A DNA stretch of 64,000 bases from Nymphaea colorata (taxonomy: Eukaryota > Streptophyta > Magnoliopsida > Nymphaeales > Nymphaeaceae), in assembly GCF_008831285.2 (NCBI RefSeq), contig NC_045139.1, positions 602,204-666,203 of the forward strand. The letters run 5' to 3'. The position numbers were made by a program, and so were the translations under genes. The notes below the pieces were generated by a model. The model was not told the origin of the DNA, ran no database searches, and saw only the letters and a program-made list of their open reading frames with translations. Positions 360 to 59,800 of this stretch are shown piece after piece; the stretch's first letter is position 1, and each line of letters opens with the position of its first letter.

Positions 360-465
360 ACTCCTTCTTTCCGGGTTTATGATCAATTCAACCTTGAGGC
401 GCAGGACCCATCTTGTTCAGTCATTTTCAGTTGTGTTCCTTTACTGGTTCTACGTTTTTTCATGA
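340..465 (+). CDS. Conserved sucrose-control (SC) peptide uORF of S1 bZIP
   Basis: This uORF encodes 41 residues from AUG 340, or 28 residues from the in-frame AUG 379, and stops with TGA at 463-465. The C-terminal part reads THLVQSFSVVF followed directly by LYWFYVFS. This is the hallmark of the sucrose-control peptide uORF found ahead of group S1 bZIP genes such as Arabidopsis bZIP11. In that family the nascent peptide stalls the ribosome when sucrose is high and so represses translation of the main ORF (established knowledge). The two in-frame starts also match the family arrangement as I recall it. The main bZIP start lies 209 bases downstream of the uORF stop in a different frame. High confidence for identity; regulation in this species is inferred. 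Confidence 0.95.
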   Translation: MIQLLSELLLSGFMINSTLRRRTHLVQSFSVVFLYWFYVFS

Positions 466-470
466 ACTAA
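462..470 (+). CDS. Minimal uORF (M-N-stop) overlapping the SC uORF stop
   Basis: The stop of the SC uORF is embedded in the tetranucleotide ATGA. The ATG at 462 opens a two-codon ORF (M, N, then TAA at 468-470). Such a stop/start overlap could permit reinitiation or act as a further brake before the main start. Directly visible in the sequence; function not shown. Confidence 0.4.
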   Translation: MN

Positions 471-673
471 TCGTCATCTCTGAACAATCGGGGTTCTGCT
501 GCCCTCAAGTTTACTTTTTTTTTCTAGCAGTAGTAGGAAGAATAAATCGAGTCCTAAACTGTATATATACGTACCTATATATCCATAAAATCCTGCTGAA
601 TTTTCCTTCTTCATCTGAGAAAAACAAAATCCATAAAGAAAAAAAGGGAGGAGAAAGAGATATTCAGAGATTC

Positions 674-1132
674 ATGGCTTCCAACAGCACCAGTCCTACG
701 ATCTCGACGACGTCTTCAAGCGGCAATTCTGAGGAAGATCTGCAGCAGAAGATGGACGAGAGGAGACAGAAGAGGATGCTTTCTAACCGCGAATCCGCAA
801 GGAGGTCGCGTATGCGGAAGCAGAAGCATTTGGATGATCTCATGGCCCAAGTGACCCTCCTTAGGAATGAGAACAACCAGATTCTCTCCAGGATGCACGT
901 CACCACCCAGCACTATCTGAGCCTAGAGGCAGAGAACGCCACCCTCAGAGCCCAGATCATGGAGCTCACTGCCAGGTTGCAGAGCCTCACAGAAATGCTG
1001 GGTTACATGCAGGACCTCAGTGGGTTCTGCATGGACCCAGTAGAGCAGTACCCTGATCCCCTGCTCAGACCTTGGGATGTGCCCCTCATGAACCAACCAA
1101 TCACTGCATCAGCAGATATTTTTCAATACTGA
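674..1132 (+). CDS. Group S1 bZIP transcription factor (bZIP11/44/53 type)
   Basis: Single-exon CDS of 152 aa, starting at ATG 674 (MASNSTSP) and ending TGA. The frame is open upstream to 413 but has no ATG there, so 674 is the start. The basic region fits N-x7-R-x9-L exactly: N38, R46 (ESARRSRMRKQK) and L56. A leucine zipper follows with heptad positions L56, L63, I70, T77, L84, L91, L98 and L105. The small size, Ser-rich N terminus and zipper of about eight heptads are typical of group S1. These factors heterodimerise with group C bZIPs on ACGT elements and reprogram amino-acid and sugar metabolism. The SC-peptide uORF just upstream independently confirms S1 membership and predicts translational repression by sucrose. 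The exact orthologue (bZIP2, 11, 44 or 53) cannot be decided by eye. The 3' UTR probably runs several hundred bases further. Confidence 0.95.
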   Translation: MASNSTSPTISTTSSSGNSEEDLQQKMDERRQKRMLSNRESARRSRMRKQKHLDDLMAQVTLLRNENNQILSRMHVTTQHYLSLEAENATLRAQIMELTARLQSLTEMLGYMQDLSGFCMDPVEQYPDPLLRPWDVPLMNQPITASADIFQY

Positions 1133-11140: not shown

Positions 11141-12183
11141 CTCTCTCTCCCCCCTCCCCAGTGTAACTGAACATGTGAATATGGTGCTGAATGATTTACG
11201 GAAGACATTGACCAAATATAAATGCAATAATAAATGAAAACATCAGGAATTAACGAACAAATGGTGCAACCAGAGTATATACAAATAATCACACTCACCT
11301 GTACACAATGAAGAAACTGAGTAAATCAAGCAACCCAACGACAAGAAGAACAAACCCTTGGAGTGTACCTCTAAGATCCTAAAAAGTTCAGGACTCAAAA
11401 TTTTGACTGCCCACCTACTAGTCGCATTACTGCCCCAGCCGCTTTGGATCTAAACAAATATCTGTTACTGAGTGCACCTCCTTGTTCTAAGCGGGCAGAA
11501 GAAGAAAAGAATTATATTTCCTTATATTGGTAATTGGCTCAAGATTATGCCATCAAAATTTCCATTCTTGAAATTAGCATTTGCGCCCTTCCTTTGAGAA
11601 GGTGTTAGCTTAACCATGGTTAACCGATCCCATAGTTAAGTTACCATCAAATTCTATTTTACGTTATTCAAAAAATTGCACACAACAATTTATCTCCCTC
11701 CTGTATGTCTTCCAAACTTAATCTCTAACATGGCAAAATCTAATCCAAAATCATTCACCATATTTTAAGTATAATTTGTCTTCCCGTCATCTGTTTTCCC
11801 ATATCCCTCCGGCCTCCAGCATTATATTTCATCAAAAAGTTCATTCCCAGGTTAAAAAGGATTCAGGTAAGCTCAATGAAGAAGTTGAACTCAATTGTTC
11901 AAGAAAGTCAAGAATTCAATAGTGCAGGTGTGTCTCTTCACAGGAGTTGCCTTGAATTTTCTGACATGGGTGTTCTCATGGCAAACTCACTCATAATTCT
12001 CAAGCTAAAACCTGTCCTCATTTTAGAAAAGATACCTGCAATTCAAGTATAACTGAGATTTTGGCCTGGTTCGGATAGAATGGTGAGATAAAGGCAGGTT
12101 CAAGAAACCCACGGACCATATCAGCAGAAATAAAAAAACTTGAGGCCCTTTTTGTCATTTATAAACAAAAGTTAGGGCCTCAA

Positions 12184-14052
12184 ATGAAAGTTATCCTTGC
12201 TTATCCCCATCACGACGGTCTGTCCTTCTCCAACCAGAGAAGGCGGGAGCTCGACCCTCGTCACCCCGCCATGGCCGCGGTCCCGCCGCCACCGGCGAAC
12301 CCCACCACGGTTTCCGCGAAAACAGACCGAGCCGACCTCCTGGAAGCTGTCGAGCTCCTCCGCCGGTGCACCAGTCCGGAGGAAACGCGGCAGCTGCACG
12401 CGCGGCTCGTGAAGGCGGGGCTCTCCGACAACCGGTTCGCCCAGAACCGTCTCACCGCCTCCTGCGCTCTATCCGACGCTCGGTACGCCCTCGAGGTCTT
12501 CGCCCGCTCTGCCTCCCCCAGCCGCTTCATGCGCAACACTGTCGTTCGGGCCCTCGCCGAGTCCGAGTCTCCCGGCGACGCCGTTCGGTTCTACGGCGGT
12601 ACGCACGCCCTCGGCCTCCCGGCGAACCGTTACACTTTTCCGGCGCTTCTCAAGGCATGCGCCCGCCTCCTTGGATTGGAGGAAGGCCGCCAGGCCCACT
12701 GCCACGTCGTCAAGTGGGGCCTGCAGCCTGACGTCCACGTGAGCAACACCCTCATCCACCTTTATGCTAGCTGTGGCCGGTTGACGCAAGCCCGCAAAGT
12801 GTTCGACGAAATGCCTCTGAGAACTGTGGTCTCTTGGAATGCCCTGATCTCCGGCTATGTCCAGAATGGGATGTCCTCGGAGGCGCTCTCGATGTTCCGA
12901 GAAATGCAGATTGAGGGCACTGAGCCGAATGAGGTGACCATGATCGGCGTCTTGACTGCTTGCTCGCATGCAGGTGCACTTGAGCTGGGCAAGTGGGCAC
13001 ATGCTTACATTCGAAGGCGTGGGCTTGGAGTGAGAATTGGTGTGGTAACTGCTCTGATAGATATGTACTCCAAATGTGGGTGCATTGAGAGGGCTGTCGA
13101 GGTTTTTGAGGGGATACCAGATAAGAATATAGTATGCTACACAGCCATGATCAATGGCCTTGCTGTCAATGGCCACGGCGAAAGCGCAGCGGCGCTGTTT
13201 GATAGGATGGTGATGGTCGGCATTAAGCCGGACGAGATCTCATTGATTAGTGTTCTTTGTGCTTGTAGCCACAGTGGTCTGGTGGAAGCTGGGCGACGGT
13301 ACTTCCGCGATCTTCAGAGGAGATACAATGTGGCACCTCAGGTGGAGCACTATGGTTGTATGGTTGATCTCTTGGGAAGGTCCGGCCACCTCGAAGAGGC
13401 ATATGAATTGGTAAAGAACATGCCCTTTGAGCCGAATGCGATTATATGGCGGACATTGCTTGGTGCATGCAAAGTGCACAACAATGTTAAACTGGGGGAG
13501 CTCGTGGTGAAGGAGATCATGATGTTGGAGCCTCACCACCATGGAGACTATGTTCTTCTTTCCAATATATATGCAGCAGCAGGAAGATGGGAGGACGTGT
13601 CTAAGATCAGGAGGGTGATGAAGGACAGGGGAATTGTTAAGACGCCGGGATGCAGTATGATCGAAGTTGGCAACAAAATATATTCTTTCATTGTGAAAGA
13701 CAAATCGCATAGACACTCGGAGGAGATGTACAAGATGCTAGATCAAATGGCACAACGGTTAAGATCAGCAGGTCATGTACCCAATACGTCACTGGTATTG
13801 ATTGATATGGATGAGGAAGAAAAGGAGAATTCGTTGAACTATCATAGTGAGAAAGTGGCGCTTGCGTTTGGGCTCATAAAGACCAGAGCTGGAACTCCGA
13901 TTCGGATAGTGAAGAACCTGCGAGTTTGTGATGACTGTCACTCTGCAATGAAGCTTCTATCTGTTATTTATGAACGAGAAATTACAGTTCGGGACCGAAA
14001 TAGGTTCCACCATTTCAGAGGAGGAGTTTGTTCTTGTGGAGACTATTGGTGA
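12184..14052 (+). CDS. PLS-class pentatricopeptide repeat protein with DYW deaminase domain
   Basis: Intronless 622-aa ORF. An alternative start at M30 (MAAVPPPP, base 12271) is possible. A GC-rich N-terminal segment is followed by P, L and S type PPR motifs from about residue 110 to 450 (for example VVSWNALISGYVQNG and VTALIDMYSKCG). E/E+ motifs come next, with the PG box PGCSMIEV near 488-495. The C-terminal DYW domain has the deaminase signature H554-S-E556, C582-x2-C585 with H586, then CSCGDYW at the very end. PPR-DYW proteins bind specific organelle transcripts and carry out C-to-U editing. Plastid or mitochondrial targeting is therefore expected, though the N terminus is not a textbook transit peptide. 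All catalytic and zinc residues I can check are present, so it looks functional. The RNA target cannot be read from sequence. The first ~500 bases are clearly GC-richer than the rest. Confidence 0.95.
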   Translation: MKVILAYPHHDGLSFSNQRRRELDPRHPAMAAVPPPPANPTTVSAKTDRADLLEAVELLRRCTSPEETRQLHARLVKAGLSDNRFAQNRLTASCALSDARYALEVFARSASPSRFMRNTVVRALAESESPGDAVRFYGGTHALGLPANRYTFPALLKACARLLGLEEGRQAHCHVVKWGLQPDVHVSNTLIHLYASCGRLTQARKVFDEMPLRTVVSWNALISGYVQNGMSSEALSMFREMQIEGTEPNEVTMIGVLTACSHAGALELGKWAHAYIRRRGLGVRIGVVTALIDMYSKCGCIERAVEVFEGIPDKNIVCYTAMINGLAVNGHGESAAALFDRMVMVGIKPDEISLISVLCACSHSGLVEAGRRYFRDLQRRYNVAPQVEHYGCMVDLLGRSGHLEEAYELVKNMPFEPNAIIWRTLLGACKVHNNVKLGELVVKEIMMLEPHHHGDYVLLSNIYAAAGRWEDVSKIRRVMKDRGIVKTPGCSMIEVGNKIYSFIVKDKSHRHSEEMYKMLDQMAQRLRSAGHVPNTSLVLIDMDEEEKENSLNYHSEKVALAFGLIKTRAGTPIRIVKNLRVCDDCHSAMKLLSVIYEREITVRDRNRFHHFRGGVCSCGDYW

Positions 14053-29112: not shown

Positions 29113-32100
29113 TCACTTTGCTTTGCTAATACTTGTATTTGAAGACGTGTCCCATACCTGAAATTACAAACAAAATCATTTCATTAACATGATATAATGA
29201 AGATAGTTATTTCAATTATATAGGAAAAGGTAATTGCAGCCCAGCAGTCATTCGATTAAGAGGTGCTTTCCAGTATCGTTCCCCAGTTTAAGGAACTATG
29301 TATCCTGACCGCACCCTACGAAGCTAAGCTGCATTTATTGTTAAGAGTTGTTCTTGCAAATAAGGCCCTTCCTACTCACCTTCAGTTTCCCCTTGGAACC
29401 TCCTATGGCCAGCAGAGAAGGGCTATCTTCTGAGAATGCAAGTGTGAAAACAGCCCCCTGAAAATTTCAACCAGAAAGTTGATAGCCATGTCAGATATCA
29501 CATTACAACACAATAATGCGCCTAGAATCATGAAAATGGGAAGAAAAGAAAAGACCCAAATCGTAATTTTGCAACAAAAAGGCCACAAAATATATCCCAA
29601 TGCAATGTCTTCTTTTGATTATCAAGCATTATATTTTAAGAGTACAAATTCCTTGCTTTTTTTTCCCTTATTTGATGGAGTATTTCAGCAAATGAATGAT
29701 GTCCTTGATATTTCCTGTTAGCTCCAGTAGCTGCTACTATCTCCAATTTGCAAGAAACTACATGTCATGATTGAAGATCACGTTCAGACTTTGGCACTTA
29801 CAACTTCAGATTTCCAGGATCCAACACATGATGGTTGATTGTTTGATATATTCCACAACTTCACCTAAATTCATCAACAAGAACTATTAGTAAATGGGAA
29901 AACATGTTTAGATCCTAAATTTCACAAAGCAGAAATGAGAAACACACACCGTCTTATCTGTTGATCCAGTTGCTAGTAGCTGAAACAAAAGGGAACCATG
30001 AGATACTTGTCACAGACAAAAAATTAGGAGATAAAAGATTCAAGGAGATCAAGAGGATAACATACATTAGCTATAGATGGATTATACGAGACTGCACAGA
30101 CAGCTTTATCATGTGCATGTAAGGTGAAACTTGGTTTGAGACAAGAATCTGAATTAGTTGCAGCAGCTCGAATGTCGAAAGACTGAACTGTACCATCTTC
30201 TATACTAACCTGAATACAACAAAAGTGCCATTATGAAATGCTGTGGACTTTCTTTTTCCTTTTTAACTTGAACCAAAATATTACCAATGTACTTCAAATA
30301 GAACTGGACATAACGATAAACCAAGTAGTCATATGTTCAATAAGAACTGCATACAGGATGACACAAAGCAGGAGCAAGTAAATGTTCACGTATGCATAAT
30401 CAACTTAGAAGAACGTTTTCATGAAACAAATGGGCTTTTTTTTCTTTTAACAGGTTCAAAATTGTTACCACAAATGAGTGAGCTGTGTGAGGATCCCAGG
30501 CAATGCTTTCAACATCAGCTGGCACAGACCATCGGACACCAGCATGTGATGGGGCCCTCATGTCCATCTGCATATAATATAAAATAACTGTGAAGATGCG
30601 CAAAAAATATAATATATTCTAAGGCAGTTACACTGATTATACTGAAATTGGACCTTTCATAGCAAGAAGACTGGCTAGAGTACATGATGGTGTTTGCATG
30701 ATCTCTCTTCCTCTCTCTCTCTCTCTCTCTCTCTCCCCCTCTCTCTCTCTCATGTATTAATAACAAAACAACCAGTAATTTCTAGAAAGAGTATGTCAAC
30801 AAATGAGAGTAATGAAAAACTTTGAACACAAAAGGGTAAGTTTCATCATGTGTTCTGTTGCCTCACCATGACTACAGTGCGATCAAATGAACCACTTAAA
30901 AGAACAGTTGATTGGTGACAATTCCACGCAACAGATTGCACCTATAATTTTAGCCAACCAGATAATAAAAGAATTAGCACTTCATAGTTCTGATTTAAGC
31001 AATCTCATGATACAGTTTAAATACATCACTTCACCCGAACCAATAACAGAAATTAGCACATGGAGAACTCTTGCTTAAGTTCAAGTACAAAATTCACAGT
31101 CTTTCACTCAGAATCTGTGAACCTGAAAAGTAGTTAATTTTCCACATAAGATGAGAAAAGTCGTTCATGTGGGAAAAAACCAGTAAGGATTAAGGAACAT
31201 ATGGGAGCACCTGTAGTCACAGATGTAGCACTGCAGGTGCATTGCGCATCGAGCATGTAAACCACACAAGCAAACATTGAAGCACATGTAGTGCCTCACC
31301 ACATGGACGTACTACAGGAACAGATGCAATATGAAGGTTTATATAAAAATGCAAATTTCAAAACGCAAAAAAAATGGATGCATCTGAATATGAATTTCCA
31401 AATTGCTATGTACACATAATAAGCATAACATTATTAGAATTAAAAGCTCCAAAATCAAGTTAAATCTCAAGAATATGAGTTGTTAAACAATAAGGATCAA
31501 CAAATATTAACCAAATCATGAGTCAAAACACCAAATGGACACGCTCTCATGCATATCCTGCATGTTTATTTGCCTTCTACAGTCTCACAGTAACAATGGT
31601 AGAATGCTTTATCATATGACATAGAAGTAGACATCAGAAGAAGGAAATATATGATTTGATATTTTAATAATGCAGTGAATGAAACTAAGGTGTTAAAGCC
31701 TGCCTTATCTGAGTGATGTTGTAATGTATTTGCACATTTTCCCGAGACAATGTCCCAAATCTTGATGGACTTATCAGCACTTGTACTGGCTAGAAGATTC
31801 CTAACAGTAGAAACAGACATCAATACTTGAACCGTTCCTGTGAAATTTAAAGGAGCTCATCTTGGTATCAGAAACCACCTGAATTCTTTGTTCCATGCCA
31901 AACTCAAGACTGAATCTGTATGACTATCTTCTTTGTATGTAATGGAAGCCTGAAAGAATCCATCAACAGGAATGAAACAAGATGCAAAACTAGATTCAGC
32001 AGGTCAGTAAAGGTATGATGGAATACAATACACATGCATCTAATCAACTAAGTGTGCTTCTCCAAAAGAGGAAGCTGTAAAGGAAAAAATTAAGCCAAAC

Positions 32101-32275: not shown

Positions 32276-35200
32276 ATGCAATGCAATAACTTGCAAACTT
32301 TCCAATTCAGGAAAAAACACCAATCAAAAAGTGGATAAGGATTCTAGGAGATGGTCCTAAGACTCCTAACCAATGTTGTAAAAAGCGTATCGTAAGGCGT
32401 ATCGGTCGGGCTTTAAGATACGCCGTATCGTAACGTATCGTAAATTTTAAAAAAATAATAATAATAAATCAGAAAAAAATTAAAAAAAAATCAAAAAATT
32501 CATAAAAAATCAGAAAAAATTAAAAATAATAAATTCTTCATAGAAAACATGGTTTAGTCTTTTAGATAATGATAGACTTATTATTTTGCTAAATGCTATA
32601 AACTTACACGTTCACGGTTCATCATTCATACTTCATAGACATCAAAATTCATAACAATAGCATTCTTTTTCATCTTTATCTTCATGGTTTAAAAAAAACC
32701 ATTTCCTCTCAATGGGAATCATCCACCCATGCACAAATCCATGGTTTAATAGATGATTTCACGGTGACAATCGATGATTTCACAATGGAAATCGATGATT
32801 TCACAATGGAAATCAATGATTTCCCTCTAAAACGGTACAATCTATAGATTAGAAATGAGGAAGGGGTGGGTTTTTATAAAAAAAACTCGAAAAAATGGGG
32901 TTCAAGTCTCCTTTTTAGAAATCAGCCCGTATCGTACGATACGGGCCGTATCGCACCGTATTGTACGATACGGGGGCCCGTATCGCACGTATCGTACGAT
33001 ACAGGTACGATACACCCCCATTTGCGATACAAGGGGTGTATCGTATCGTATGTTGCAAACGATACGATACGTATCGTACAATACGGCCCCGTATCGTACG
33101 ATACGGCCCCGTATCGTACGATACGTACAACACTGCTCCTAACACATCAATTAAATCATTAACCTCAAAGAAGATATCTGACAGGATCGCAGGAATATTT
33201 GATGTATATAAAGAGAAGAGTTTAGTAGGAAACAAAAAACATATACAACGTAAGAGGAAATATCATAAAAGAGAGATCAATCCCAATAACAACTGTGATC
33301 AATTCCCAAACTCTTTAGCGTCTATGACTCCATGGAGACATAAACTAGCCTTTAACCATTTTTAAGAAGCTAACATACAAATTTTTCAAGTAATTGAAGC
33401 TAGATTTATAAAGGTAAAAGGTGAACAACAAATCCACAGGAAAAAAACTAAGATCCAATTATGGTGGCAAGAACCTTAGTTGTACCTCTTTTTTCTTTTT
33501 CTTTTTCTTCTTGTCCTTGCTAGACTTGTCAGACTTTGGTTGCTTTAATGTCCCTCCTAGTGTCATAAATGGCTGAACTTCATCAACCTAGAACATCACA
33601 TAGAGGAAACCACATGCACATTGTTTCGGTACAGCCTATGTGTGGAAGAATATTACAGAAATAAACATTCAAACCAGTTATATATGGAAAGAGAGTTTAT
33701 CATTTGAACAAAAAAAAAAAAATAAGAAGAGACATTGGTCTACTTGCCAGGTCAAGATCCCAAATTTCAATTCCTGGTTCCATTGATCCAATGGCAATAA
33801 AATTTCCTGAAATAAAAAAAGTAACATCAAAATAATCAGTCTGTTTTGACATGTAAAGACCAGAGACTATTAACCAGAAACTAACAAATATGTATGACAG
33901 GAGACAGAAGTGAAGTGCATGGAGAAGGTAACAAATAATCATGGAACAAGTTCACCAGTAACCACATACAGCAAAGTTTCTTTAATGATTTTACAATTAG
34001 TCAGACAGACTCAGCAGATGGTTGGACAGATTAATTGGATACAAAAGAAATGCCAATACTGCCTACTGCTCTTGTTGTTGCTATGATCAATATATAATGT
34101 TAGATATTACGATGAAAAAATTGTTGACCACGAAAGAAACCAAAATAAAAAATAAATTCTGTAACAGAAAAAATATATATGAATTTTACTGAAGGATCTG
34201 ATGGACATGCACCAACATGATTATGAACTTTTCCTTATAAACAAACTCACAAATCCATCTGGATTATTAGTAACACTAACACACCAATGACCAGTGGACA
34301 TGCCAACAATGTACAAAAGCTTGAAGAAACCCATGGCAAGCTGAAACCGACCCCTGAGTACATAAATTTCTTGTCTACACACTGAAGCAATCACTGGAAC
34401 CACAATAAAACTCCAGCCAAAATACTAACCTTTGTCTCCACCTTTGAGGTTGCAATCAAGCCAGGCTGTGCAAAGGGGAAAGGATGGCAGAAATATTTCA
34501 TGATGCACAAACAAATTTGGTTTGCCATCTTCTGTATCTTCCTCAAGGATATATATCTGTATACCCATAATTTCAAGCAGAGGAGACCTTAGCTCAAAGC
34601 CAATGGCATAGAGACAGCCAAAAAAATAGCCTAAGGTTGCTTTTCAGGATCTGATCACATCATATCTTGCATTTTACAAAAGAAAAAACAATACTCCCAT
34701 AAAAGATGAGGTTAATCCATAAAAACAAACGTGATACATACCTTCAGAAGATTGACATCATCCTCATTACAAGCACAAACTATAACACAATCTGAAGGCA
34801 GTATTCTCCTGTCCTCTTCTTCTTCTTCATCCTCATCCTAAATATGCAATAACATATCTTACTGCAATGTGTTTAAAGATAAGAGGATATGAGTATCAAC
34901 TAAAAAAGTTCACCAGAGAAATGCTTACATTTTTGTCTTGCAGATACGGATCCATGACATTGCTTGGATAATAGAGATTCCCAGACAGTGTTCCACTACT
35001 AAACAAGTCTACACCTGAAGATACATTGAATGTTCTCTAATCATAGATTTACAGATGAAACCATCACAACAGGATGGATGCAACTAGATTCATTATAGGC
35101 AGGTATTTATAGAAACATGTTTTGCTAAAGGGTACCTTCATCCTCATCGTCATAGTTATCCATGTCAAGCTCTCTTAGGCCATCAGTTATGTCTTCAAAA

Positions 35201-43211: not shown

Positions 43212-45951
43212 TTCTTGAGATCATCTCCTCTGCCAATAACACCGCAACGAGAAGTTATCTTTAGATTTTGAATTCGCGACATCTGGTCAAGCGTAACAGT
43301 ATCTGGATGGATTAACTTTCAATATCTTACTTGATATAGGTTGATGAATGTCCACTAAGACACATACAACTTTAACCACAGGATAACCCAGAATATATAT
43401 AGTTGTCAAGTTGCTATTAAACAATGGCATAATGGGCAAGGGCAGATTGCGCAATGTTGGGCACTAGCTGTTCTTGATGGTGATAGTGCTTAGTTCTGTA
43501 GGTCAAAAACAGTAACAACTTCCCAATAATCAAAGTTCTATAACTAGAGCCTCGGCTAGAGATCAGCAATCCTCCTTGTGCAAGATCATAAGATCTTAGC
43601 TCATTCATCACCCTAACATCAAATACGGGCCGTCAATCTTGTAGATCGACGGCCAACAATGGTGGGTTTACCAACATCTGTTCTCAAGGCACCATTCACC
43701 ATTTGATGCAATTGTTAAATAGAAAGCACCCACTTTGAGAAAGTCGCCATGTTTAAAAAACCAAAGTGGTACCTCTTTATTCCCCACTATTGTCTTATAA
43801 TGGGCAGCTGGTGCCATGTCCTTGTCCTCAACATTAATTCCAAGCATTAGTCATCCATAAAAGTCATTTTGCATCAGATAAACAATGGGAACAAGTGTCC
43901 CAATGTGCTCTCATCAACCTTATATTCCTTGGTTCACTATTATGTGCACTAGCATTGCATAATATTTTAGGGAACAACAGTGCTCTTTTCATCAAAAGAC
44001 TACTTATGTGCTCTTTCCCTTTGGCAACTTGTGTTGAAAGGGACACTGCAACCTGTAGAAAGGACCCAAAGGGCTAAATAATATGTGGCCTATGCCATAG
44101 ACTTAATAATAATGCAAGAGTACACGACACCAACATGATTTTTAGGGAAGAGGATGACATAATGCTCTGTTTAGGATGATGAAGAAGATGCACACATTAG
44201 GTTCATTTATTCAAATTGAATTCAAAGTTTTGAGAAGGCAAGATACGAAATGATACGTGAGATATTTTGACTGAATTTGGCATTCAATTACTTAAATAGA
44301 CCGTCTTCGGGCTTCTAGCTGTATATTAAATGAGTCAAATTAATGCGTGAGATATGTGAATTCCTATGTATAAAACGAGTTTGGAGTACACTTTTCTTGA
44401 CAAAATCTTTAGAGATTTTCCATAGTAATTTCAAATTATTTGTAAAATTTTAAGATTGTTATTAAATATTTTAAATATTTAGTATGAATTTTTAAATAAA
44501 TATTTAACAAATCGCCCAATAGTGGCTATATGAGTCCATAATGCTGGAAATGTCATTCACATTGATACTGACTACACTGATTTGCCGTGCAATTCATAAA
44601 GTTTTGGATGGTAAATGTCTATGTCAATTGATCCCAACGTGCGGAGACCGGATGGCATGTTCAGGATAATTCAACAATATTTACTTATAACTGGGAAAAT
44701 AAATGAAACGGAAAAACAGTTAATTAAACAAATCACGACAAATTAATATATCTCTTAGGATCAAATATTGCTGAAAATACAACCATGGCTACAGGATCTC
44801 CAGTCACTTTAAACTTGAGATGAATTTCTCCAAAATCTAAAATCGATGGACTTTGATATCAGTAAACAGTAATCCTGCGGTTTAACTTAGTACCAATTAA
44901 ATTTTTACCTTTTATCATCGAATTCGACCGTTTTTCATTGTATTTAGATTATTTAAACTCGAATTGCTCATCCCCGCTTCCAATGTCTACCATGATATTG
45001 GACAATGAATGTTCATCGTTGTTGCCAATGGTGTTTTTCCAATATAAATATATATATTTATTTATTTATTTCCGGGAGAAAAGAGAATGTTCTTCACAGT
45101 TGAATTTAGGTTCATCAACAGCCAATCCCAGACTTAAAAAATAAATAAAATAAGAAGAATGGCGTAATGCCATCCTCAGAGTTATTCCTGTTTCGTGGTC
45201 AAATGACAAGATTTATAGCTACCGTCATCATTTTTATTATTGTTATTTTTCTATGGGTAGTACCGCTAGTAATAATAATTTAGATGACGTTCATATTTAG
45301 TATATCAATATTTCTCAACGGATTTATTGGCACATAGATGAATCCCATAACTCCAGTTCTCGGCTTGAGGGTTGACAATCTCCAGGAAGTGGAGTGCAAG
45401 GAAGCTCTTGTTTGATGGTTTGGTAGATTCAGAGGGAGTGAAGCAAAAGAAAAGAAAAGAAAAAAAACTCCATCATGAATCACACACATATATATTGTTT
45501 CAACGCAAAACAAAAAAATATTTTATATTAAAGTGTGCTTCTCGAAAAGAAAAAAAATTCTGGAAAAAGTTTAATTTTGATTTATTTATCAAGAAAGAGA
45601 AGGAATCTGTTTTTCGGGATATTAATTTGTTGACATATTTGAAAAACTGATAACGTGCGAGTCTAGTCATCAAAAGCAAAGCACGCTCGGCCTTGCCTTT
45701 TAATAGAAAACGAACGCAGAGGGAAAATGGAAGCCCATCTTCGCGTTTTCAACTTCAATGAAGTCGTTATCACAAATTATTTTTAAAGGGAAGAAGGTGG
45801 TGAGCCTAACATGTAGGGAGATTTCGATCGGGGATGAGATCGGATCGAAAATTGAAGCATTTATATGAGAAAGCAACCGCGGTTTCTGTCTCTGATTTTT
45901 TAAAGGCGAGTGTTATTCTGTTGCCGCTTCGAAGTGATCGAGTAACAACCG

Positions 45952-47191
45952 ATGACGGGATCCATGGCTCTCAGGGGAGTGATCACCTTGATTTTCTTCG
46001 TTCTCGTCTCCTCATCGTTCCTTCTTCCTTATGCAGGTGAGTTTCTGAAGCTTGTTTATTGCATTCACATATTCATTTCCAGAAAGATTCTCAACGCTAG
46101 AATACAACACAGATGACAGAATCAAGTTGGCATCATGTAAGATGCGACCAAGTTCCTGAAATTCAAAGATTTTTTGATAAGTCCTGCAGAATTTTTGAAC
46201 TTTTCTGTTGGAAGCTTGATCGAAGTTTTTGAAAATTTTGTGTTTCTACGTGATGCCGGTTCCATATCTAGTTAATACCAAACGATGGCCATCCTCGTTT
46301 GCGTGCTACGAACAAAAATTCGTGGGGCTTCCGATTAATTTTACAGGAATGTGCTATTTCTGCAGATAAATTTCGTATTCGGCAATTGAGTTTAAGATGG
46401 GTCTCCATGCTTTCTGCTAATCGTAGTTCTTGATTCTGTTGCTGCATGTTTAAGTTCTTGATTTCCAACTCAAACTGTTACTGCACGTTCCTCCTGAATT
46501 TCTGCGTAGCTGTTTCCTGCCTATGTATGCTGTTACTGTTCCACCATGAGCTCCACAGAAAATATTGAAATATTTACGTTTCATCTTATATACATGAGAT
46601 CTTCTGTAGCCTGAAGCTTGTTACGGTATAAAAATATAAAGATTAAAGAGTGACAATTTCCATTGTTCTCTTGCAGGTGGACGTCCAATATTCATAACTG
46701 AGCTGGCCGCAGAGATTACAGAAGTGGAGGAGGTATCTATCTCTTGAGAATATTCATAGGCACATATTCTCATCTACGTTAAAGATAGATAGATGAGGAT
46801 TGTCTGCTTTCTCTTCAAAAATTAAACTGCCCGAATTGTTTCACTGCAACTTCGATCTAGAGGGAGAGAGACAGAGAGATTGAAGAAATATTTGCTGTTT
46901 GGTTGATGATTTTTCTACATATGAAATTGAATTATAACTACACAAAACTGATGAATCTCTTCGGTTTTCGCTTCAATTTTTCAAATTTACTTTGCCTTCC
47001 CATGCCAATGCTCCTGCTGAACTAACAAGAAGTACTTAAACTTGTGTCAGGAAGCATTATCTGCGGGATCCCAACATGATGGAAGCGACGGGATCCACCA
47101 AAGAATGCTGAGAGTAAAAACAAACGACTATGGCAGTTATGATCCTTCACCAACGTTTGTGAGGCCTCCCTTCAAGCTCATACCAAACTGA
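45952..47191 (+). CDS. CIF: CIF-type (Casparian strip integrity factor) sulfated peptide precursor (three exons)
   Basis: Exons: 45952-46036, 46677-46732, 47051-47191, all GT-AG and in phase, giving 93 aa. The second in-frame ATG at 45964 gives 89 aa and an equally good signal peptide. The N terminus (MALRG, then VITLIFFVLVSSSFLLPYA) is a clear secretion signal. A variable acidic/polar middle (AAEITEVEE) follows, and the protein ends in a 21-residue mature-peptide region at 47126-47188: DYGSYDPSPT followed by FVRPPFKLIPN. The DYG start and the PPFKLIPN end are those of Arabidopsis CIF1 and CIF2. There the DY tyrosine is sulfated by TPST, and the peptide signals through SGN3/GSO1-type receptor kinases to seal diffusion barriers (endodermal Casparian strip, with relatives acting in embryo cuticle and pollen wall). 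The precursor carries RML upstream of the peptide, and N precedes DY. Family identity is strong; which barrier it serves is not known from sequence. Confidence 0.93.
47126..47188 (+). other. Predicted mature CIF peptide coding segment
   Basis: Codes for the last 21 residues of the precursor, starting at D-Y (sulfation site) and ending at the C-terminal Asn before the stop. A second tyrosine stands at mature position 5 (GSYDP). Confidence 0.88.
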
Positions 47192-47633
47192 TAATGGAGG
47201 TCGTAGCTAGACTCCGGCCATGATCATCAAAGTTGGTAGAAATATTATGCAGGTGCTTGAGCACATATATACATATATAAAGATATATATAAGCATACAT
47301 ATATATATCAGCTTATGTGGATAGTCGAGGGCTTATGTGGACATAGTTTGCTATTGAATAAATGTATCTTCCACCCTATGAATGTTACATAAATCCAGCG
47401 AAAGAAGCATGTACAAGGACATACATCCTGCATATACATGCATATGTTATGTTAGAGAAAGAAATAGAGAGAGAGAAAGCTGGGCAGCCGCATGCGAAGC
47501 AAGCACAAGCTCTGTTTGAAGTAGCCTGGACCTGCTTTAACGGGCATATAAAAGCAAAAGGTAGGCATGCGAAGAATCTATGTAATTTCCCACCTGTTAA
47601 AGAGCATCTTCATCCGCTTTCTGGACATCACAT

Positions 47634-54400: not shown

Positions 54401-56866
54401 CTCCCTTTCAGTGGAGGGTATATCAAGGGTTTTAGTAACAGGAGGTCTGCCAAAATTATCACATTGGTATGCCTGGACACATGGACATACCCATTGTGAT
54501 AAGTGTTCAGTATAATTTCCACATAAGGGGAATACAAAATCGAGTAATCGCCTGCCAATTTCAGGCTGATTGTTGGAATGCTTTCCTGGATGTGCATACT
54601 GCATTGACACAAACAAAATGAGGATAAAGTTGAAGTGTTACTGTTACTTAGCTGATGTTATTTGCCAGTACAGGTTTGCCCCTGAACAGGTTGAACAAAT
54701 AGACAAAAATAAGCTGTGGTCACGAGCGCTTGATGGTTCTGATTATCTTCCTGGAATGGTGAGTTCTGTTTCCATCCGCCTTTTGCTTTAAAAATGTAAA
54801 ATTTTGCAGGTTGTAGCTTTTGTCTTAAGCTTCTTATGGGGTGCTATTGTTTTCCTTACTCCAGGTGGGTCTCAACAACATAAAGGAAACTGATTTCGTT
54901 AATGTCACTATTCAGTCTCTGATGCGTGTTACACCTTTAAGGAACTTCTTTCTAATTCGTGAGAATTATGAACGTTGCAAATCACCACTTGTTCACCGTT
55001 TTGGTGAACTAACACGCAAAATCTGGCATCCCAAAAATTTTAAGGGACAGGTCTGTGGGTCATCATTCCATAGAGTACTAGCTTTTCTATATAAAACCTG
55101 AGTTTGCCTTTACTTAAATTTTGAATGTCTCCGCAGGTTAGCCCTCACGAGTTCTTGCAGGCAGTTATGAAAGCTAGTAAAAAACGATTTCGAATAGGTG
55201 TCCAGTCTGATCCAGTGGAGTTCATGTCTTGGCTACTTAATACACTGCATAAAGATCTGGGCGGCTCAAAAAAACCTAACAGTAGCATTATATATAAGTG
55301 TTTTCAGGTAAGCTGCCAGCATTTCTCAGAAATTCTTTTTCATTGAAGTACTTGTATTTATTTTTATGCTTCTTTTTTGTTCTTTCATCTGAGCCAGTCA
55401 TTTGCAACAGGGGGAGCTGGAAGTTGTGAAAGAAATTCACAAAAAACTATCTTCTGAGAAAAGGGAAAACTCAGAGCAGCAAAATGATGACGCCACCATG
55501 GAGGATGAATTAGAAAATGGCCATGTTGTTGTGGAAAAGAGCAAAATGCCCTTCTTGATGCTTGGACTTGATTTGCCTCCCCCTCCTTTATTTAAGGACG
55601 TGATGGAAAAGAATATAATCCCACAGGTTTGGAAGCATATGCGTTTGATGTATTTCAATTACATAGCCTTGGAGGAAGGGAGGATCTCGTACTTGCATGC
55701 ATGCATGTTTGGGAGACCGTCAAGAATTATATGGTTTGGATTTTTTATATTTAACAAGCATGTGCATTTGGGTTTTGGCAAACCTCCAAGGAATATCTGC
55801 TTGAATCATTTCATACTTTACATGATTTTGCATTTAGAAAACCCTCAAGTGGTGTCTTGTAGTTTCCTCCTGTCTGGTTAGCATGATTTGTTCTTCCAAC
55901 TTTGTGGCAGGGGGAGAGTGGGAGTACGTCTGTGTGTCTCATTCTTAACATGCATGTTCATTTGGAAAACCTTTAAAAGGCACCTGGTGGATCCCTTTTC
56001 TTACTAGGATGATTAGTTCCTGAATATTCTAACTTCTTGGCCAAGAAGTTTGTTTAAGTTACACTTTGCATACACTGGATGACTTATATCACATTGCACC
56101 ATAGCACTCAGCTAGTGCTTAATCTTCAGCAATATTTGAATTTTTGTTCCTCGCATACAGGAGACATTAATTAAGATCATGTGTTTTTCAGGTTCCTCTG
56201 TTTAGCATACTGAAGAAATTTGATGGAGAATCTGTTACTGAAGTAGTGCGGCCATGCATAGCAAGAATGCGGTACCGTGTCATAAAGCTGCCTCAATATC
56301 TAATTTTGCATATGCGCCGCTTCACAAACAATAATTTCTTCATTGAAAAGAATCCAACCCTTGGTTAGTGTTCCCTTCATGCATTTAATGGATGCATCAC
56401 GTGTTCAACTTGGTTACAGTTGTTTTTCTCTGCTTGAAAGTTTTACGAAATTACAAAGTTGTGTTGTTGCATGACAGTTAACTTCCCTGTGAAGAACCTT
56501 GAATTGAAAGACTACATTCCCCTACCCTCTCCTAAAGACAACAAGAAGTTGCGATCAAAATATGATCTCATTGCGAACATCGTTCACGATGGCAAGCCAG
56601 GGGCAGGATTCTATAGAGTATTTGTTCAAAGAAAATCCGAAGAACTATGGTGTGAATCATTTTCTTTGGATTTGGAAAACTTTTTATTTTTTAAGCAAAA
56701 AGACAACTGTTGATTCAAATATTTTATTGTTTTCAGGTATGAAATGCAAGATCTTCATGTAGCTGAAACTCTTCCACAGATGGTGGCACTATCTGAGGCA
56801 TACATGCAGATCTACGAGCAACAGCAGCCACTGGAGCAGCAGAATGGACCGCAGCATCAGTATTGA
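51496..56866 (+). CDS. USP39: USP39-type U4/U6.U5 tri-snRNP protein, inactive ubiquitin-peptidase fold (nine exons)
   Basis: Exons: 51496-51813, 52232-52476, 54674-54758, 54865-55050, 55137-55307, 55411-55626, 56192-56363, 56478-56649, 56737-56866. They total 1695 nt, in phase, 564 aa, almost exactly the usual length. The N terminus is strongly acidic (DDDDDEDDEQED). A zinc-finger UBP domain spans about 90-180 with C116, C128-x2-C131 and H143/H147/H153. The peptidase-like domain begins at GLNNIKETDF, where D226 occupies the position of the catalytic Cys in active USPs. The His box is also lost (GAGFYRVFVQRK). It ends EMQDLHVAETLPQMVALSEAYMQIYE. Family members are non-catalytic and needed for tri-snRNP assembly and splicing (yeast Sad1p, human USP39). 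Between exons 6 and 7 a readthrough frame is open for a while but is intronic. Start: first ATG of the frame, after a GA run. Confidence 0.95.
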
Positions 56867-59800
56867 AGCTGGGATTGCAGATTTTTGTGGTGTGCTCTGA
56901 CATCGATGGGCTGTTGCTCCAGAGCAATTGAATGGTCCTGAGAGAAAATCGACGGTGATGTGATTGCAAGGAAGGGATTTGTATCGGCTTATGTTGTTGC
57001 ATCCTCTTTCACTACTGCTTGTCATGACGTCGGAGTCAAAATTTCTTGTGCTACTCGAGATAGGTCCTGGCTCTTGTATTTGGGGTTTCTAAATTGGAGG
57101 TGCCAGTGTAATTCAAATTTTGAACCCATTCAATGGAAATTAATGGATTATATGCTGAGCCTTTGATGTGACAGTGACCAAGTTTCTTTATAGTCAATCA
57201 CGGAATTAATTCATCCACATATCTTCTAATAGAGCTGATACTTATCAGTATCGCATATCTCGGATTCTTCGCAGAATATGCGTTTACGTGTCACTATTAT
57301 TGCTATTGTTTTCAGGACATTCGGCAGTACTCTCTGTTGAAAAAGAAATAAAATGGTACAGAAAGCAACATCTACCGCACATGAGGGAAACTCTCAACGA
57401 ATCAGTCTCAAGACTAATCGTTACAAAGAATCAGTTTCGGGAGTAATCGGTACACAAGTAAGCATGGTAACTCAGGGGAAGTATGTGGTTTTTCAGAGTA
57501 AGCTGTCTGGGATATGGTGCCGACTTGGAATAGAGATCAGAATGTACTGGTGAACATGATGGATAAAAGTTATCTGCATTCTCATGCATGTTATTGAAAT
57601 AAGTAGATACAACCCTATCTTAATTTTCTTCTCCAAACCCAAGCTTCCCTACATGTCAACTGAATATGACCTTGGACTTACTAAATTCCCGTCTCTCTTC
57701 ATTTCCCTATTTCAGATTTGGCTCCTAAGTTGGTATGGATCCTAAATGCTATTTATATACATTATTCATGTTCTGTACTTTTATCATCTACATGTGCATT
57801 ATAGACCTTATATGATGTTTATAGACACTATATGCTTTCTGAATTTTGAAAATCACTTCGAAGACAAGCTTTTCTCTTTGCAGACGAGCAAGCCAGATCA
57901 TAAGAAGCTCATTACTGGTTTGGCTTGCAACAGTTTCACCAGTGGGTGGTCTTTTGACCTCAATGAATGAGCCTGAACATGGTCTATTTGGTTCCTTTAA
58001 CAATTGCAACCACCAAGAAGGTAGGTCAAAGGTAGCTATCAGTTTTGGATGGTTCTAAAGAGGAAGATGCTTGACATTTCAGGATTTTGCACAAGGGAGA
58101 GCATGTTGGAGCCTGTTTATGATGATCTTTGGTTTACCAAATTCTTTGGAGAGTAGGGACAACACCTCCAACCCATGTAGCCCACCTTCCAACAATCTCT
58201 TACAGATGGAAATGAAAGAGGATGAGACTTATACCATTCTGATATTGAAGCAGATGTAACAACCCCACCTTCCTAAGCTCTTTAACTTTAATAATTGATT
58301 AACCACTCCTTGCAACATCATGGGGCAAAAAATGAATGGAATATAGAGGTCTAAGTTCACAGTGTCATCTAAGACAGAGACAGGGAAAAGGTAAGTTGAG
58401 TTAGGTCAAATGGACCCATGATTTGGTCTGCTTTATTTCTTTTGTCTTTAGCTTTTTCTTTCTTTCTTTGCACCTCTGCCCATTGCGGATTAGACCGGGC
58501 TTTGCCTTTTGAACCGGTGACATCCAGTTAACTTGGTTCGATCCTCTAGTCATGTAAAAGTTGATCAAAATGAAAAAAGACCAGCACCAAAATTTCAAAC
58601 TTAACTCAGATGAAAGTGAAGATTGATGACATGTTCATCCAAGCAAAACTGAACCCCTTCTGAAGCTCTTGCAAGTTTCACTTCTTAAACCAATAAGAGA
58701 TACGGCAAAGGAACCCCGTCCAGCCTAAGCTAAGTCACAGTGGTACGTGGGGCCGTACCGGCGTGTACCCGGTACGTTTGGATTGGTTCCGAGTCAGAAC
58801 CAATCAAAACCACAAAAAAAAAACATTGTTTTGTTTTGTTTATGTTTTTTTTATGAGATTATATGTAGGAACTATGAAAGGAACATTGTTTTAATGATGT
58901 GATGATATCAATTTTGTTTTTTTTTTTAAAAATTTAAAATATATAACTATCGTCATACTCTGCTATACCAAGATTAGCGAAAAATGTTGTACCCGTACCC
59001 ATTTTCCCATACGAACACTCGTACCTGTACCCATGCGACAGAACCTGAGTAACTGAAACCATTGAACCCAATAAACAAGCACCAGAGATGTAAAACTCCT
59101 AAAGCCATTCATGTTCGTTGCTGTCTTGTCATGGGAGTTTATAACTTTGTTGAGTGCCTACAAAGGGGGGCCAGGTTGCTTTAATTTTCTAATAGAAAAT
59201 TTTCTAGATAGGGCGATTTGTTCCAATTGGACATGAAAGACAGAGTAATAATTTGCATCTTTTCGATAAACAGTTCACTGATAATAACATGCTGATAAGA
59301 TCAGTACCAACTTTAAGAACAAAGGAAATCAATAAACCTTTTCTCTTTTCTTGTTAGTGGCATCCAAGCATTACCCACACAAGGACCACAAACTAGATTG
59401 CCCCTTTATGGCCCTTTTATCTTACTCAAGAAAAGGATCTGACTCATGCATCACAACCTTGGGAGCTAAGGCAAACTGTAAGGGAGCCACTTTTCTTCTT
59501 TCTTCCTTTTGAAATCAAAAGTGATAAACTACAAGAACTCGCTATGGCCCCAAGAGGTGTGGGGCACCGGCTCAGAGGAATCGCTAGTAGGTGGCTGGTT
59601 CTTGTTTTGAATGGCATGGGCACCACCCTTTACTCTTGCCAATGCATGCTATAACCATGTGGAGGAGGCCAGTAGCCTCTGGATTTATGTTTTCATGCGA
59701 GCAACAAGGTCTCTCGACTTGGGTACAGTATATGTATATATATATACACACTAAAAAGGTTCAATTGGCCTTCATGGGTCATAGAGCACGGAAGGCAGTG

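Follow-up and report, generated by a model that had tools for sequence, protein, structure and literature searches.

A CIF1/2-type peptide gene of Nymphaea colorata with tyrosine at position 5 of the mature peptide

The window, a 64,000-nucleotide stretch of Nymphaea colorata DNA, contains a three-exon gene which, judged by its sequence, is an ordinary CIF1/2-type family member, with a likeness far beyond chance. The encoded peptide is very probably a ligand that reports gaps in the Casparian strip to SGN3/GSO1 in the manner of CIF1 and CIF2, sulfated on Tyr2, carrying Tyr5 as a plain variant residue and derived from an apparently single-copy gene.

Gene model and mature peptide

The predicted CIF gene is located on the forward strand, beginning with the ATG at 45952, with a second in-frame ATG at 45964, and terminating with the TGA at 47189-47191. 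At 45943, three codons before the ATG, an in-frame stop bounds the start. Exon 1 (45952-46036, 85 nt), delimited by translation and splice sites, contains the start codon, the signal-like stretch MTGSMALRGVITLIFFVLVSSSFLLPYA and the first base of a split Gly codon, and is followed by intron 1 (46037-46676), a GT-AG intron of 640 nt in phase 1. Exon 2 (46677-46732, 56 nt) supplies the remaining bases of the split Gly codon and the propeptide stretch GRPIFITELAAEITEVEE, and is separated by intron 2 (46733-47050, 318 nt, phase 0, GT-AG) from exon 3 (47051-47191, 141 nt including the TGA), which encodes the remainder of the propeptide, EALSAGSQHDGSDGIHQRMLRVKTN, and the mature peptide. The boundaries predicted from the sequence are CAG/GTGAGT...TTGCAG/GTG for intron 1 and GAG/GTATCT...TGTCAG/GAA for intron 2. 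Joining of the three exons generates a 93-aa precursor, MTGSMALRGVITLIFFVLVSSSFLLPYAGGRPIFITELAAEITEVEEEALSAGSQHDGSDGIHQRMLRVKTNDYGSYDPSPTFVRPPFKLIPN, without a stop or frame problem. Downstream, a motif scan detected AATAAA at 47357-47362 (+), a consensus match and possible polyadenylation signal. The peptide and the coordinates of the earlier note (45952-47191, three exons) were exact, as was its picture of a small, intron-split gene, the precursor of about 90 aa proposed there being 93 aa by translation.

The precursor N-terminus is hydrophobic, the top 15-mer starting at residue 10 with a mean Kyte-Doolittle value of 2.55, and it is the sole precursor region exceeding 1.5. Both this N-terminus and the precursor size agree with those of CIF1/2-type precursors, which are ∼80-100 aa in length with a signal peptide. 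Within intron 1, ∼108 bases at 46306-46413 are 79% identical to locus L002 (G000:C1:43237169-43237277, E 2.7e-16), perhaps reflecting a dispersed repeat; this DNA match (query 355-462) is contained in the intron, outside the exons.

The mature peptide, DYGSYDPSPTFVRPPFKLIPN (47126-47188, forward strand), corresponds to precursor residues 73-93 of 93 and runs straight into the stop codon. It starts DYGSYDPSPT, with Tyr at positions 2 and 5, and ends PPFKLIPN. As in CIF1/2-type peptides, a DY sulfation motif opens the mature sequence (DYG at 47126) and the 21 residues with their PPFKLIPN ending occupy the extreme C-terminus of the precursor. Assignment of the peptide is based on its match to CIF2 and its identity to published CIF1/2-type peptides. 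In a phmmer search the 21-mer aligned with CIF2 in PDB 6s6q (chain C) over all 21 positions with an E of 3e-6, the sole match up to E 10, and 13/21 columns are invariant across the window peptide and four published CIF1/2-type peptides.

Among these four, soybean GmXAP3 (Glyma.13G201100, Glyma.12G235600; a CIF homologue, DYGRYDPSPSLSKPPFKLIPN, as printed in PMC9369194) is identical to the window peptide at 16/21 positions, including Tyr2, Tyr5, Asp6 and PPFKLIPN, the window having Ser4, Thr10, Phe11, Val12 and Arg13 where soybean has Arg4, Ser10, Leu11, Ser12 and Lys13. Tomato SlCIF1 (Solyc01g109895, DYGRYDPTPALSKPPFKLIPN, as printed in PMC9028419) is identical at 15/21 positions, Tyr5 and Asp6 among them, with the six differences falling at positions 4, 8, 10, 11, 12 and 13. 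Arabidopsis CIF2 (At4g34600, DYGHSSPKPKLVRPPFKLIPN; PDB 6s6q chain C) likewise shares 15/21 residues together with its length and C-terminus, its His4, Ser5, Ser6, Lys8, Lys10 and Leu11 corresponding to Ser, Tyr, Asp, Ser, Thr and Phe in the window. CIF1 of Arabidopsis (At2g16385, DYGNNSPSPRLERPPFKLIPN) also reaches 15/21, its own residues at the differing positions being Asn4, Asn5, Ser6, Arg10, Leu11 and Glu12.

The likeness is well outside the range produced by chance. Scored against the four published peptides the 21-mer reached 89.0; when this stretch was scrambled, the best remaining place in the window scored 24.25, and 200 first-order Markov windows scored in the same way gave a mean of 23.1 and a maximum of 36.5. 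A nucleotide pattern encoding PPFK-x-IPN plus TRR is found at a single place in the window and in 0/100 shuffles. The CIF2 match and a score far above the simulated maximum thus bear out the initial proposal of a CIF-family gene. An open frame arising by chance, or a pseudogene in decay, would be compatible with a gene model that is a sequence-only prediction, and with a precursor for which Pfam returned no family match up to E 10. However, neither would be expected to give a peptide score so far beyond the simulated windows, nor to combine three exons, GT-AG introns and a hydrophobic N-terminus with the absence of any stop or frameshift, and we regard a non-working gene as highly improbable.

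Tyrosine at position 5

In the earlier note the second tyrosine was considered unusual, possibly marking a ligand that is CIF3/CIF4-like or specific to the lineage. Its statement that CIF1 and CIF2 lack Tyr5 was correct, as position 5 in the Arabidopsis peptides printed in PMC11534595 is Asn in CIF1, Ser in CIF2, Trp in CIF3 and CIF4, and Pro in TWS1. However, Tyr5 is present in soybean GmXAP3 (PMC9369194) and tomato SlCIF1 (PMC9028419), both printed with DYGRYDP. Tyr5 thus occurs in 2/7 of the published mature peptides compared, these being both of the non-Arabidopsis ones, in a limited sample that depends on which sequences are printed in papers, DYGRYDP having itself been among the literature queries. 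Tyr5 is not special, since the soybean and tomato peptides also carry it, and the ideas that it is unusual or marks a lineage-specific ligand did not hold. As both published non-Arabidopsis CIF1/2-type peptides compared have Tyr5, the Asn and Ser of Arabidopsis may be derived. The strings DYGSYDP, DYGSYDPS and GSYDPSP were not found in a search of the literature restricted to main texts, and the phrase 'second tyrosine' was not found among the papers listed by a text search with SGN3 and related terms.

The N-terminal DY is shared with Arabidopsis CIF3, CIF4 and TWS1. In favour of a ligand of the CIF3/CIF4 (pollen wall) or TWS1 (embryo cuticle) kind, the Trp that CIF3 and CIF4 have at position 5 is, like Tyr, aromatic (PMC11534595). 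The C-termini argue against both. The last four residues are PIPH in CIF3, PVPH in CIF4 and PIEH in TWS1, as printed in PMC11534595, and according to the text of PMC13082318 the CIF3 and CIF4 precursors, unlike those of CIF1 and CIF2, have C-terminal extensions, TWS1 also being cut at its C-terminus. In contrast, the window peptide ends IPN at the stop, with neither a terminal His nor an extension to be cleaved, and its PPFKLIPN placed directly at the stop is the C-terminus of CIF1/CIF2. On this basis a CIF3/CIF4-like identity was rejected, Tyr5 is no sign of one given Trp5 and the different C-termini of those peptides, and the probability of either type of ligand is very small.

A further alternative is that Ser4, replacing Arg beside Tyr5-Asp6, turns Tyr5 into a second TPST site, resulting in a doubly sulfated CIF with altered SGN3/GSO1 binding. 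Replacement of an acidic neighbour (-1 or +1) of the tyrosine reportedly lowers TPST activity (a review citing a 1992 study). Asp follows Tyr5 in the window, soybean and tomato peptides as printed, whereas the preceding residue is Ser in the window and Arg in the other two. Asp6 could therefore favour TPST, and Ser4 in place of Arg makes the local charge around Tyr5 less unfavourable for sulfation. Yet the soybean and tomato peptides contain the same Tyr5-Asp6, and only Tyr2 is listed as sulfated in either. The GmXAP3 forms given by mass spectrometry in PMC9369194 have sulfate on Tyr2 or none, a Tyr5 sulfate never being listed there; the Tyr2 sulfate belongs to a form of 17 residues, and the complete 21-mer is printed with hydroxyprolines at 9 and 14 and no sulfate. 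The representative form of SlCIF1 in PMC9028419 is sulfated on Tyr2 with Tyr5 plain, from a search that permitted sulfation on Tyr, Ser or Thr. In addition, CIFs are described with one sulfated tyrosine in PMC13082318. Double sulfation is disfavoured by this peptidomics of two relatives in which only the Tyr2 sulfate is listed, and Asp6 together with Ser4 leaves a small opening for what we consider an unlikely modification. Because sulfate is easily lost during mass spectrometry, assignment of the site is imperfect. For the family or its relatives, a single sulfated tyrosine is described together with two hydroxyprolines. By analogy, a single sulfotyrosine at Tyr2, together with hydroxyprolines, is expected on the mature peptide.

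Copy number and surroundings

The genome searched was that of the same assembly, comprising 407,766,735 bases in 783 contigs. The exon-3 protein detected itself and one weak match (L004, E 4.2) in this 408-Mb genome, in a search that scored the best first-look candidates only and whose sensitivity for a divergent 21-mer was without a positive control. The weak match has neither DYG nor a CIF ending and was rejected as a second CIF, being a chance match. The sole genome match of the CIF3 peptide (L005, E 5.37), an Arg/Pro-rich frame without DY, was dropped, and the CIF4 peptide returned no match in the same genome, again without a positive control. A nucleotide pattern encoding DYG-x-[Tyr or Phe]-[Asp or Asn]-P-x-P, which misses CIFs whose fifth residue differs, recovered the window gene alone, the reversed control pattern giving 4 matches. 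Within the window a second CIF gene was likewise rejected, as the precursor, run by tblastn with E values up to 10, hit the three exons of its own gene and a single 9-aa stretch by chance, and the best other peptide score was at chance level. By these searches the CIF1/2-type gene is apparently single-copy in its own genome. Pfam PF03567, used as a stand-in for TPST, produced no match, the same profile detecting 0/14 controls.

Other features were observed elsewhere in the window, the neighbouring frames being consistent with plant DNA. A 657-aa open frame at 12079-14049 (+) contains PPR repeats, an E motif and, at its C-terminus, a DYW deaminase domain by Pfam, and is presumably a protein of the organelle RNA-editing type. 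An open frame at 398-1129 (+) has a bZIP transcription-factor domain (Pfam), and those at 54829-55098 and 56438-56710 (+) match ubiquitin carboxyl-terminal hydrolase (PF00443), the latter frame narrowly missing the curated cut-off; we take these two as possibly belonging to a USP39/SAD1-like gene. Similarity to WD40 beta-propellers, below curated cut-offs, was detected in an open frame at 31569-31856 (-), and 5/10 of the window open frames scanned had no Pfam match. At 32831-33362 several frames are open, with translations in which YRTIR and RIVRY, among others, recur, pointing to a tandem repeat of short period. No hit was obtained in the window with Rfam at its gathering cut-off or in a tRNA scan. 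Of the candidate stretches obtained by comparison with the bacterial/archaeal (430) and viral (19) collections, 0 were confirmed. The window was also scanned for YIYT[QH], since in Liriodendron a PSK gene reportedly neighbours two CIF genes (PMC13074997); the sole match, at 59737, reads VYVYIYTH-stop and was taken as chance.

Proposed role of the peptide

In the accounts given by PMC10827307 and PMC11534595, CIF1 and CIF2 originate in the stele, escape where the Casparian strip is interrupted and activate endodermal SGN3/GSO1, and the same system is described in rice with OsCIF1a/b and OsCIF2. Binding is said to become ∼100- to 1000-fold weaker once the sulfate is lost (PMC13074997). In tomato, SlCIF1, with its Tyr5, is reported to be expressed in roots only, as determined by qPCR (PMC9028419), and the single tomato CIF1/2 homologue is described as having a vascular reporter pattern like that of the Arabidopsis CIFs, the Casparian strip being interrupted in SlSGN3 mutants (PMC11757151). 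SlCIF1 and this homologue are taken here as one gene, the gene numbers printed in the two papers differing slightly.

Peptides of the CIF1/2 type are characterised by root-stele expression and by binding and activation of SGN3/GSO1 or GSO2. From these relatives we infer how the window CIF may be processed, modified, expressed and perceived. The precursor would be secreted, with TPST sulfating Tyr2 in the DY motif, some prolines being hydroxylated and a protease cleaving ahead of DY. With the stop codon immediately after the peptide, no C-terminal cut would be required. The 21-mer would be produced in the root stele, would leak via gaps in the Casparian strip and would bind SGN3/GSO1 and a SERK co-receptor on endodermal cells, receptor activation then leading to lignin deposition until the gap is closed. 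Tyr5 would carry no sulfate and would be one of the ordinary variant residues in the CIF family.

The gene is a further, apparently single-copy representative of the CIF1/2 type, and the comparison corrects the view of Tyr5 as an oddity. Because the peptide in the solved structure is Arabidopsis CIF2, which lacks Tyr5, the variation at this position provides a small, testable point concerning which CIF residues matter for the receptor.
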